NCBI GenBank assembly: GCA_025041175.1 | Contig: JAKCFJ010000002.1 | Coordinates: 868,001 to 932,000, forward strand | Direction of reading: 5' to 3' | From: Halobacteriales archaeon YIM A00010 | Lineage (GTDB): Archaea; Halobacteriota; Halobacteria; Halobacteriales; Haloarculaceae | DNA length: 64,000 nucleotides | Shown here: positions 10,038 through 63,480 of the stretch, piece after piece | Layout: every line of letters starts with the position of its first letter | How positions within the stretch are numbered: position 1 is the stretch's first letter | Program-made: the position numbers and the translations under genes | The notes under the pieces: model-generated | Told to the model about the DNA's origin: nothing | The model's input: the letters and a program-made list of their open reading frames with translations, nothing else | The model's database searches: none

Positions 10038-10533
10038 TACGAGTGATCGGTAATGCCGGACGTTGCTGGACCGATTCCGGATGACCGGTACCCGATTCGC
10101 TCCCGTTATCTATACCATTACGAATATACGCGTGTAATGACCGAGGTATCAGCCGCGAGCAGATCGGACAGTTTTATCCGGTGGTATCGGACGTGATTGT
10201 GTAAGAAGACCAACCAGAGCCGGTGATAGACGACCGTGCGTCCCAGACGCTCGGTGCATCACTCGGCTTGCCTGGGACGAACGTCGACGCAGCGTCATAC
10301 TGTCGGTCATAATTACGTGAATGTACGGTGGCGTTTGCGGGAGCGTGGAGCAATCGCCTGATTGAACTTGCCATCGAGTGTGCAACGATCCATGACCGAC
10401 AGTATCAATAACAGCGAGTCGGGCGCACTGTCGACGTTCTGCCCCGTGTGTTGCTCACAATAACACCACTGTTTAATGTAAAAAAGCAATAAATAGTAAC
10501 ATATATATGTGCATGTTTGATTGATGCTGTTGT
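10038..10533. other. Divergent intergenic region with a possible gene remnant
   Basis: Separates the GH51 gene from the sugar transporter operon and holds one family A element. On the minus strand 10174-10294 reads as a Ser/Thr/Asp-rich peptide ending GSGWSSYTITSDTTG and a stop, in the style of a haloarchaeal secreted protein. The frame is interrupted by the family A element, so it may be the tail of a lost gene. AT-rich DNA at 10470-10520 (ACATATATATG) probably holds the promoter of the transporter operon. Confidence 0.4.
10298..10404 (+). mobile_element. Family A MITE-like element, copy A1
   Basis: A 107-bp element bounded by TACTGTCGGTCAT and its inverted copy ATGACCGACAGTA, flanked on both sides by TCA (10295-10297 and 10405-10407), a likely 3-bp target duplication. 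The interior matches copy A2 at 60035 along most of its length, including GGAGCAATCGCCTGA. No coding capacity. The ends match those of family C. Confidence 0.8.
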
Positions 10534-18272: not shown

Positions 18273-18303
18273 ACTGTCGGTCATAAGGACCATGACCGAG
18301 AGT
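18273..18303. repeat. Minimal inverted repeat with family A ends (A4)
   Basis: ACTGTCGGTCAT and ATGACCGAGAGT are separated by only seven bases. These are the two ends of a family A element without its interior, so it looks like an internal-deletion derivative. It could form a hairpin between the GH51 and GH4 genes and act as a terminator. Confidence 0.55.
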
Positions 18304-18368
18304 ATGAGCGCGTCGCGTGTGGGCGACCGAAAACGTATTATCGCGTGCGTGTGACGAGCCAGCGTACA

Positions 18369-34347: not shown

Positions 34348-34442
34348 TACTGTCGGCCCTGCGGACGGATCGAGACGGACTATTCAGTTGCTGTCCGGCG
34401 GTTTTCCAGCAGCCGATACGCGATCACCCTTCTCCGACAGTA
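34348..34442 (+). mobile_element. Family C MITE-like element, copy C1
   Basis: A 95-bp element between the convergent dehydratase and GH3 genes. It begins TACTGTCGG, ends CCGACAGTA and is flanked by TCA on both sides (34345-34347 and 34443-34445). The interior (CAGCAGCCGATACGCGATCA) is shared with copy C2. Confidence 0.85.
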
Positions 34443-36769: not shown

Positions 36770-37771
36770 CACCTGGGTTCTCTCGAGCACGCGTCTTAAC
36801 GGTTCGGGCAACCGGGAAGGGAACCACCTCGTGTGACTCTTCTTCCCGATCGTTCTACACAGAAGAACAGAATAGTCGCGTCGTCTGGGTCATTCGGTGG
36901 ATATAACCGCTGTAGAGGCGATCTGTCCGGGTCAGTTCACGGCGAACACCGCGTCTGCATCATTTTTATCGGCTTATTCTAACATAAAGAACGAAAAAAC
37001 AGCCGGCTGGCGCTACCCGACCATCACCGAACGTAGTTTTACAGAGGTACGTTTGTAACGAAATTCCAGCATTGTATCGGGAGATCATACGACGTTAACG
37101 TAACAAAGCCCTATTCTCTACAGCAGAACAACCATCCAGCAGCCGAGAACGGACGGTGCTCGGTCGCGGGGGAGCACGCGCCGTGCGATGCTATCGAAGG
37201 ATAACGGCGGTTCGACGCAATCGTTATACTGTCGGACGGGGGTGATCGCGTATCGGCTGTTGGTGAATTGCCCGACGGCAGCTTGATAGTCAGTCGCGAT
37301 CCGTCCGCAGGGCCGACAGTAGTAGGAGACCGAGTAGTTGGGTGGATCTGAGTGCCTCGAAGACGGGCGTCGGTCACCCTGATCCGAAGAACACGAGAGC
37401 CGATCGGTAACGATTGTGGGAACCTAGATTGCCATTACACTCGTACTGGTGTAATTTCCTCTTCCATGCCGGCGTCGTGGATGGGGAGTTGCGGGGGCGT
37501 TCGGGAGCGTCTCCGTCAGTTCGGCTATCGGATGATTCGCTTTGGGTCTCCCAGAGGTCAGGGCGGGTCCGTCACCGGTACGCGATACGACCGGCCAATT
37601 CGACGCGAGCCGTTCGCGTTTCGATTCGTTCCGGCGCGCCACGAGGATCCCAACGCATCCCGCCACCCGGGAACAGCGTTTTCCGGAAGAGACGGGCAAG
37701 AAACAAAGATGCAGGCCGGTGCTCGAATCTAGTGAGCTAGCAGCCGTGTCGTTTGCTTTCCGCACCGCGGG
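36770..37771. other. Intergenic region of 1 kb with element C4 and a palindrome
   Basis: No convincing gene. An AT-rich patch lies at about 36960-37000. Element C4 is at 37227-37321. A 22-base inverted repeat (ATTACAC, eight bases, GTGTAAT) lies at 37434-37455 and could be an operator. Short open frames in 37410-37770 on both strands have poor composition. Confidence 0.45.
37227..37321 (-). mobile_element. Family C MITE-like element, copy C4 (inverted)
   Basis: 95 bp, in the opposite orientation to C1-C3. It begins TACTGTCGG and ends CCGACAGTA; the interior reverse complement matches the family (GCCGATACGCGATCACC). The flanking triplets are TTA and GTA, so the duplication has decayed or was never exact. 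Confidence 0.8.
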
Positions 37772-41772: not shown

Positions 41773-41852
41773 TACTGTCGGTCATAATTACGTACACCGG
41801 CAGTGGACGCTTCGGGATCATGGAGCGCGCTGCTGGCTGAACCGGCGACTGA
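41773..41852 (+). mobile_element. Family A element, truncated copy A3
   Basis: The left end TACTGTCGGTCATAATTACG matches A1 and A2 exactly, and about 50 further bases align with them. The right half and end are missing; the family B element B2 begins at 41853, so the copy was cut by that insertion or an earlier deletion. Confidence 0.65.
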
Positions 41853-41960
41853 TAGAGACTGTTGTGACTCCGTACCGCTGTGGCGACACAGAACGGTTCG
41901 TGAACCACCAGAGCAGTCGTCAGTCAACGTCCGTGCCCAACATACTCACAACAGTCCCTA
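41853..41960 (-). mobile_element. Family B MITE-like element, copy B2
   Basis: A 108-bp element, inverted relative to B1. Ends are TAGAGACTGTTGTGA and TCACAACAGTCCCTA. It is flanked by TGA at 41850-41852 and 41961-41963, a 3-bp target duplication. The reverse complement matches B1 at almost every position and both are exactly 108 bp. Confidence 0.88.
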
Positions 41961-42166
41961 TGAAGCATCCACTCCGTCCCTCTGACAGTCTCCAGTTCGA
42001 TATCGACCATCTCCACCGCGTCGAACTGGGACGCAGCGAAGAGTCGATCCAGACGCCCGGTGTTGCGCGCGTGTCCCCCAAACCACTCGGCCCTGTTGGT
42101 TGCAATAATCGACAGCTCTCCGTCGTAGTTAGAAAGTTGAGAAATCGGATCGTCAGCTCTGTCCAT
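41924..42166 (-). CDS. Small protein of unknown function, C-terminus replaced by element B2
   Basis: An open frame of about 80 codons (MDRADDPISQLSNYDGELSI...) with an acidic, haloarchaeal-looking composition. A TATA-like GATATATG lies about 30 bases upstream of ATG 42166, which supports a leaderless start. The frame enters element B2 at 41960, and its last 12 or so codons and stop come from the element, so the original C-terminus was lost. No family recognised. It may be a truncated gene. Confidence 0.4.
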   Translation of the reverse strand: MDRADDPISQLSNYDGELSIIATNRAEWFGGHARNTGRLDRLFAASQFDAVEMVDIELETVRGTEWMLHRDCCEYVGHGR

Positions 42167-47250: not shown

Positions 47251-47345
47251 TACTGTCGGCCCTGTGGACGGACCGAGACGGACTATCCAGCTGCCGCCGG
47301 GCGATTCACCAGCAGCCGATACGCGATCACCGCTGTCCGTCAGTA
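47251..47345 (+). mobile_element. Family C MITE-like element, copy C2
   Basis: A 95-bp element, closely similar to C1 through the interior, with TCA on both sides (47248-47250 and 47346-47348). The right end is CCGTCAGTA, one change. The right TCA is the TGA stop codon of the minus-strand gene at 47346. Confidence 0.85.
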
Positions 47346-47678
47346 TCAGTCTTCAGTCCAGTACATCAGCGCTTCTTTCGGTTCCTCACATCCCGTGCAT
47401 CGATCCGGAAGGCCCCCCTTGATTTGCCCCATCTCGCCGCATTCCGTACACCGCCACATGAGTTCCCCTTCACCGAACTCGTGCCCGGTACGGGCGTGCT
47501 CGACGGTCAGACTCTCGACCCCTGATCTCGTGGTCACGAACACGCCCGCTTCTCCGATCCCCCGGATCGTCCCCACCGATTCGCCCGCTTCGGTGTACAA
47601 CGTTTGTCCGAGATCGAGCGTCCGATCCCCGGTGCCAGCATCGGGCTGTTCCTCGTCCGGCGGAGTTTCACCGTTCAT
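47346..47678 (-). CDS. Small rubredoxin-like zinc-ribbon protein (DUF7130-like)
   Basis: A 110-residue protein. The middle has a small beta-barrel-like region (LGQTLYTEAGESVGTIRGIG), and the C-terminus holds two CxxC knuckles, CTECGEMG and CTGCEEPKEALMYWTED, that form a metal site. The type is common in haloarchaea, where it is called rubredoxin-like (I recall DUF7130). The stop codon is the duplicated target of element C2. Confidence 0.8.
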   Translation of the reverse strand: MNGETPPDEEQPDAGTGDRTLDLGQTLYTEAGESVGTIRGIGEAGVFVTTRSGVESLTVEHARTGHEFGEGELMWRCTECGEMGQIKGGLPDRCTGCEEPKEALMYWTED

Positions 47679-47745
47679 ACTCGGTTATTCACCGCCCGCT
47701 TCCTTAAATATCCGCCACGATCGGCCAGTTCGGGTTCAGCCACCG

Positions 47746-47853
47746 TAGGGACTGTTGTGAGTATGTTCGGCACGGTCGTTGACTGACGACTGCTCTGAGG
47801 GTTCACGAACCGTTCTGTGTCGCCACAGCGGTACGGAATCACAACAGTCCCTA
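47746..47853 (+). mobile_element. Family B MITE-like element, copy B1
   Basis: A 108-bp element with perfect 15-bp inverted ends TAGGGACTGTTGTGA and TCACAACAGTCCCTA, flanked by CCG at 47743-47745 and 47854-47856. It lies upstream of two divergent genes and has no coding capacity. It matches B2 (41853) at nearly every position in reverse. Confidence 0.88.
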
Positions 47854-47919
47854 CCGTCGTTCGTTGCCCGCTGGATATGCGTGGTCAAGACGTATGGAGA
47901 TCCCGCTACCAGAGGAGGT

Positions 47920-60034: not shown

Positions 60035-60140
60035 TACTGTCGGTCATAATTACGAGACTCTACGGTGGCGTGTTCGAGAGCATGGAGCAATCGCCTGACC
60101 ACACAGGCTAGCGAGTGGTCAACGACCATGACCGACAGTA
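60035..60140 (+). mobile_element. Family A MITE-like element, copy A2
   Basis: 106 bp, ends TACTGTCGGTCAT and ATGACCGACAGTA, interior closely matching A1 (GGAGCAATCGCCTGA shared). It lies upstream of two divergent genes, 44 bases from the CBS start and 89 from the next ATG. The flanking triplets CTA and TAC do not match, so the duplication is not clear here. Confidence 0.85.
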
Positions 60141-63382: not shown

Positions 63383-63480
63383 TACTGTCGGACAGAGGTG
63401 ATCGAATATCGGATCTCGTGAACCGCCGGACAGCAGCTGGCTATTCCGGCCCAATCCGTCCGTGGCTCTGTCCGACAGTA
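63383..63480 (-). mobile_element. Family C MITE-like element, copy C5 (inverted)
   Basis: 98 bp, three bases longer than the other copies. Begins TACTGTCGG, ends CCGACAGTA, and is flanked by TCA on both sides (63380-63382, 63481-63483). The interior, read in reverse, matches the family (CCAGCTGCTGTCCGGCGGTT). Confidence 0.85.

Follow-up and report, generated by a model that had tools for sequence, protein, structure and literature searches.

The window, a stretch of 64,000 nucleotides from the genome of Halobacteriales archaeon YIM A00010, belongs to contig C2 of a genome of 5.97 Mb in seven contigs. It contains two copies of a short repeat (family B), designated B1 and B2, together with sister elements of two types, A and C (Table 1). 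B1 and B2 share 94% identity, are both exactly 108 bp long and lie inverted relative to each other, with 15-bp ends (TAGGGACTGTTGTGA / TCACAACAGTCCCTA) that show one mismatch in the left end of B2. The length, the ends, the opposite orientation and the 3-bp duplications (CCG and TGA) described in the sequence-only reading were all confirmed in the sequence. Neither copy is located at a stop codon. The remnant of the C element around B2 was recognised by eye through comparison with the C inserts of other B copies. The neighbouring DUF7130 gene (47346-47678, minus strand), the Pfam match of which reaches the last residue of the protein, is adjoined at its stop by an A element. A 32-bp C-type remnant with a deleted core and some altered end bases lies between TGA triplets at 18273-18304.

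Table 1. Elements of family B and sister elements in the window, with their ends and duplications
Feature	Position	Strand	Remarks
B1, 108-bp element	47746..47853	+	flanks CCG/CCG; gap between divergent called genes
B1 left terminal inverted repeat	47746..47760	+	TAGGGACTGTTGTGA
B1 right terminal inverted repeat	47839..47853	-	
B1 left 3-bp duplication	47743..47745		CCG
B1 right 3-bp duplication	47854..47856		CCG
B2, 108-bp element	41853..41960	-	flanks TGA/TGA; within remnant of C element
B2 left duplication	41850..41852		TGA
B2 right duplication	41961..41963		TGA
C-type element, left part	41773..41852	+	TACTGTCGGTCAT...; host of B2; right part absent
A-type sister, 95 bp	47251..47345	+	TACTGTCGG ends; TCA duplication 47346-47348 = DUF7130 gene stop
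A-type sister, 95 bp	34348..34442	+	TCA/TCA
C-type sister, 107 bp	10298..10404	+	TCA/TCA
A-type sister, 98 bp	63383..63480	+	TCA/TCA
A-type sister	37227..37321	+	no matching duplication (TTA/GTA)
C-type sister	60035..60140	+	no matching duplication (CTA/TAC)

Copies, duplications and nesting of family B

A search of the own genome with B1 showed 28 other full-length or nearly full-length copies at 90-96% identity, and the pair is thus far beyond chance. Altogether, family B comprises 47 copies and 2 fragments. The copies are either simple (29 copies, 104-108 bp) or longer and interrupted (18 copies, 206-319 bp), the latter being located with the help of the end pattern. All copies lie on contigs C1-C3; C4 shows two single end matches with 2 mismatches each, and C5-C7 show none. 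The two window copies had been called nearly identical and taken to indicate recent movement. This wording is slightly too strong for the pair, because 94% is typical of the family and the nearest copy of B1 elsewhere in the genome reaches 96%.

The flanking triplets are identical in 38 of the 47 copies (21 TCA/TCA, 16 TGA/TGA and 1 CCG/CCG) and differ in nine, five of which (L011, L012, L013, L017 and L024) lie within copies of a D element. Flanks that combine TCA with TGA, as would be expected from palindromic element ends, are absent among the 47 copies, indicating that the triplets are true direct target duplications. B1 with its CCG and L077 with its TCC/CCG deviate from the TSA flanks (TCA or TGA).

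The comparison of relatives for empty sites, proposed in the sequence-only reading, covered one insertion (L025) in six congeners. The flanks of L025, where the neighbouring genes resemble gcvH and hemA by eye, adjoin without the element in four of the six (G001, G003, G004 and G005). The joined flanks align in one piece in G003 and G005, and in two pieces without room for the element in G001 and G004. According to the alignment, the gene stop at this point is TGA in two of the four empty-site congeners and TAA in the other two. In G002 and G006, the distance between the flanks exceeds that in the joined query by about 0.4 kb; the coordinates are the same in both genomes, which are possibly not independent of each other.

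Seventeen of the 47 B copies contain a parsed A and/or C insert flanked by a duplicated TGA or TCA. The A inserts are 98-99 bp long with TACTGTCGGACAG ends and the C inserts are 106-107 bp long with TACTGTCGGTCAT ends; one copy (L064a) bears an A plus a C insert, and an 18th longer copy (L061) bears a C insert with one changed end, as judged by eye. Within B, the inserts are confined to positions 39-41 and 58-60, with a shift of 3 in two copies that have a small deletion. These are two of about three internal TSA sites, few sites on which to judge the targeting of the hairpin apex that was considered. B elements with 98-107-bp cargo are found at many places, each with its own duplications, and the copies sharing one insert type tend to cluster in the tree. 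That such copies cluster and yet have their own genomic duplications indicates that the composites moved as units. Five B copies are hosted by copies of a D element, the uninterrupted sequence of which is seen in a D-like stretch lacking B (L281 and L282, by eye). Nesting two or three deep also occurs among elements of the TACTGTCGG group at two further places of the own genome (L275 and L280, C1:3500-4800 and 949300-950300), with the nesting site about 20 bases from the element end; at L275, an A element lies within another A element and a C element within the inner one.

The dispersed copies with their own 3-bp duplications, the site empty in congeners and the composites moving as units support the mobile-element reading of the pair. 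The reading that would overturn it, in which the B repeats are a conserved structured RNA or a regulatory hairpin at fixed places, draws on the folding of B, which is well above that of shuffles both as DNA and as RNA (z about -5.5 to -6). However, the direct duplications, the empty site and the nesting show movement of B, and its positions are not fixed. The compensatory changes are at the shuffled level in 20 copies, with a covariation score of 0.037 vs. 0.034 (115 of 500 shuffles as high) and 1 pair changed on both sides vs. 0.4 expected (180 of 500 shuffles as high). Rfam gave no match in the window at the gathering threshold. A conserved-RNA identity was rejected on the missing Rfam match and the level of compensatory changes, and the structured-RNA reading as a whole is barely credible.

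Insertion of B and its sisters on TGA stop codons

The gene ends come from a home-made gene caller, the codon-usage model of which was built from the window and 40 loci. Each site was classified in a script from the single TSA remaining after removal of the element and one duplication. The B count omits 10 of the 47 copies, namely the five inside D and five without identical TSA triplets (L001, L005, L029, L077 and L078), leaving 37 sites: 18 at a stop, 16 in other non-coding sequence and 3 in coding sequence. The sister count is based on 39 sites from 40 loci picked among 66 listed pairs, with 15 at a stop, 23 in other non-coding sequence and 1 in coding sequence. R/S-rich open upstream ORFs (L002, L007, L008, L014, L022 and L023) were not called genes, in agreement with the protein reading.

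Insertions of B and its relatives fall preferentially on TGA stop codons, at a rate far above chance. The duplicated TSA is the TGA stop of an intact gene at 33 of the 72 non-coding sites (B 18/34, sisters 15/38) compared with 7-8% expected; stops make up 31 of 445 non-coding TSA within 1 kb of the B loci and 38 of 599 of the sister loci. A cruder count of start-bearing ORFs of at least 50 codons ending at the TGA gave 24 of 37 sites vs. 15% of 478 flank TGAs. All seven upstream proteins tested from the 18 B stop sites have Pfam matches, as has the DUF7130 protein of the window. Relative to the stop, B lies in the same orientation at 11 sites and in the opposite one at 7, a fairly even split. 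The other 39 non-coding sites lie away from stops, 14 of them in divergent gaps. The frequent coincidence of the duplicated TSA with the stop of an intact gene is new here; a limited literature search of titles and abstract openings found no earlier description of stop-codon-directed insertion.

The motif around the target is weak, with mostly C before the TGA and a purine after it. Weighting the null by eight motif positions raised the stop fraction to 8.4% only, and a motif-weighted per-locus simulation (5000 runs) gave a mean of 9.7 and a maximum of 19 stops vs. the 33 observed.

An insertion exactly on the stop leaves the upstream gene with its full length and its stop codon, and its protein intact. 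The excess might accordingly come from pure selection, in which any TSA is cut and only insertions at gene ends survive. Called coding sequence is hit by only 4 of 76 insertions, although 68-76% of all TSA are coding. Insertions are also rare at stops within gene overlaps, where the neighbouring gene would be cut: such stops account for 1 of the 33 observed vs. 33 of the 109 others, which points to some contribution of selection. However, an insertion at a non-stop TSA up to 60 nt downstream of a gene end should do about as little harm, and yet, of the 45 insertions in this range, 33 lie exactly at the stop, compared with 34-36% expected; the sisters alone show 15 of 23 (P = 0.003). The stop excess also holds in convergent gaps alone, where 14 of 20 insertions are at stops vs. 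30 of 205 in the null, and tandem gaps show 18 of 35 vs. 46 of 516. The observed sites are left out of the null pools, so that the null is slightly lowered; with these sites included in a pooled null, the P values stayed near 1e-6 (convergent) and 1e-8 (tandem). The 14 insertions in divergent gaps, none of them at a stop, also argue against survival at gene ends as the sole cause. Pure selection, rather than target choice by the enzyme, is thus possible but somewhat doubtful. The preference, if true, would be an unusual and elegant means of spreading through a compact genome while sparing its genes, and could reshape 3' ends by placing a hairpin right after the stop. It would also serve as a testable handle for finding the missing enzyme, and the 47 B copies and 351 sister half-sites form a rich natural record of target choice.

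Proposed movement in trans and the search for a mobiliser

With a probability of roughly 0.86, family B is a non-autonomous family of the MITE kind that is moved in trans, with a cut at TSA and a preference for TGA stops. B has no coding capacity for a transposase, being 108 bp long, and its longest form of 319 bp consists of nested elements. A transposase acting in trans, probably of the DDE type, would read the 15-bp terminal inverted repeats and make a 3-bp staggered cut at T-S-A. It would be encoded away from any element with B ends, or have been lost. The stop-codon bias would then reflect not selection alone but also the choice of gene ends as targets by this enzyme.

Like prokaryotic MITEs, for which a description from Haloquadratum was used as the comparison (PMC3119063, available part), B is short and gene-less, has terminal inverted repeats and a target duplication, and is found inside other elements; prokaryotic MITEs are thought to move in trans, as proposed here. 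Unlike them, B has no parent transposon with common ends in the searches made and shows a strong preference for TGA stop codons. B is thus a genuine MITE-like family, ordinary in kind, and what is unusual in it is the lack of a visible mobiliser and the stop-codon preference. The latter, the nesting and a wider superfamily are additions to the sequence-only reading.

That reading had stated that the window holds no transposase. For PF01609 the statement holds, as its 38 hits in the own genome all lie outside the window; three Pfam transposase families were covered. PF13586, the controls of which gave matches, is absent from the own genome and from all element-bearing genomes tested (5 of 5). 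PF07592 gave no match in the own genome but none in the control genomes either, so this search shows little. Most of the PF01609 hits (25 of 38) lie on C4-C7, contigs without B copies that are perhaps recently acquired plasmids. Among the 30 examined of the 38 PF01609 hits, none has a two-sided match to the B ends and 7 have a single loose or short one. An insertion sequence with the ends GGGACTGTTGTGA, which the sequence-only reading had proposed to look for, did not emerge from the searches made. The own genome contains no pair of B ends from 319 bp to 3 kb apart with up to 2 mismatches, and a convincing pair of insertion-sequence length is absent from the 12 haloarchaeal stretches among 30 GTDB stretches (the other 18 being bacterial) and from the order-wide matches read. 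No relatives on plasmids emerged for B or for the one A element searched.

Pairs of B ends of insertion-sequence length with equal triplets occur at two places only among 414 loci, and both were rejected. The first (L086, identical to L248, in G232; L086:1501-2542) spans 1042 bp between TGA triplets with 0 and 1 mismatch and consists of two separate 79-bp elements; the 0.9 kb between them holds no transposase-sized gene of its own (ORFs by eye). The second of these elements has a changed left end, and its TGA is the stop of the 1912-2463 ORF; it stands outside the counts. The other place (L268, identical to L405, in Halostella; L268:129-1512) spans 1384 bp between TGA triplets and is a 79-bp B-like element split by other DNA. 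The splitting DNA, about 1.3 kb long, has ends of the GCCTCTGTTGAAATCC type and what looks like an 8-bp duplication; it carries a small helix-turn-helix-like ORF and a membrane-like ORF, with no obvious transposase by eye. Among the matches listed, a 913-bp pair of sister ends with equal triplets proved to be two separate elements, and a 2319-bp pair, by its coordinates, has one end in one element and the other in a second element that lies inside a B copy. Paired end matches on viral contigs (80 of 83 stretches examined) were judged to be chance, given their scattered distances and low G+C. The best loose pairs without equal triplets (0 and 2 mismatches, 2058-2061 bp) lie on three viral contigs of 38-40% G+C. 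No transposon with B ends was thus found in the searches made, and the mobiliser would lie elsewhere or be lost.

The nearest documented behaviour found for the TSA cut is that of the IS1031 group of the IS5 family, members of which have a TNA target and a 3-bp duplication (PMC12016507, in the part available). These members carry a transposase, whereas B has none between its ends and no such transposase was located here; one set of IS1031-group ends given in that part differs from the B ends. B could be a deletion derivative of such an IS1031-like insertion sequence now lost from the genome. Besides the TNA-type duplication, the inner end CTGTTG of B is common, by eye, to GGCTCTGTTGAAATCC, an end at a PF01609 locus of the own genome, and the GGCTCTGTTGAAATCC-type ends are presumably IS5-like. 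However, no insertion sequence with the full B ends appeared in the searches made, and the PF13586 result also counts against this origin, which is unlikely.

In 2011, the way in which the small mobile repeats of haloarchaea move was described as enigmatic (PMC3119063). The SMR-A elements of Haloquadratum walsbyi (HqIRS42, 43 and 55) are described in the same available part as about 110 bp long, with prominent inverted ends and many copies, lacking a target duplication and aimed at near-terminal palindromes of IS605/PATE. B and its sisters could be elements of this type, a defence module attacking IS605-type transposons, as they resemble SMR-A in size, inverted ends, copy number, the lack of a related transposon in the searches made and insertion into mobile elements. 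This is improbable, compared by description: B shows clear duplications and often lands on gene stops (about half of the B sites) and in sister elements.

ISPsy8 inserts in REP palindromes with a 3-bp duplication, and REPs often lie between convergent genes (PMC1525189, available part). The insertion of REP-targeting insertion sequences (ISPsy8, ISRm19/22 and IS1397) is, like that of B, extragenic and often at gene ends or between convergent genes. However, according to the same part, these recognise the repeat palindrome, whereas the target of B is the TSA triplet, often a stop codon, with a weak flanking motif.

Sister elements and the wider haloarchaeal group

The half-site of the sister families, TSATACTGTCGG, occurs 351 times in the own genome, and the reversed control 0 times. 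Pairing of the sister ends among the matches listed per direction, which covered most of C1 and not the other contigs, gave 66 pairs of 93-118 bp, 62 of them with equal duplications. At least one TSATACTGTCGG match was present in 41 of 59 relatives (own genome counted), where many single matches are chance-like because the reversed control also gave matches; the counts are highest in G031 (137), G022 (92) and G019 (33).

Family B is absent from the six congeners at an E value of 0.001, save for a 36-base partial match in G005. Exact B ends are present in 9 of 392 genomes of the order, own included. The paired B-end elements read elsewhere are 77-80 bp long in Halostella, Natronosalvus, Natrialba and the MAG SW_9_67_24, and 109 bp long in Halorussus. 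By eye, the 77-bp TACTGTCGGCTGTAAC and the 79-bp TAGGGACTGTTGTAAC elements have the inner TGTAAC and a similar central hairpin in common, and on these shared features they probably form one superfamily. B belongs to this wider haloarchaeal group of 77-109-bp elements with TA... ends, TSA duplications and two end sequences.

Sites in other genera (G009, G029, G089, G088 and G015) were counted at 14 of 40 loci with a usable element, giving 8 at a stop, 4 in other non-coding sequence and 2 in coding sequence. The stops thus make up 8 of the 12 non-coding sites vs. 19 of 177 in the null (Fisher P = 2e-5). The 79-bp set shows 4 stop, 4 other non-coding and 1 coding site; it partly overlaps the Halostella and SW_9 loci of the preceding count and was kept out of its sum. 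We tentatively suggest, at somewhat less than even odds, that these tiny elements, a superfamily with at least two end sequences, are moved by a haloarchaeal transposition system that selects TGA stops for landing. Insertions by such a system would add a hairpin just behind an intact gene. A further family, of TACTGTCGGCTGT elements of about 77-78 bp, was seen in another genus (L387-L400 in G029); it is apparently older and decayed, and a codon-like NNC TGA precedes many of its members.
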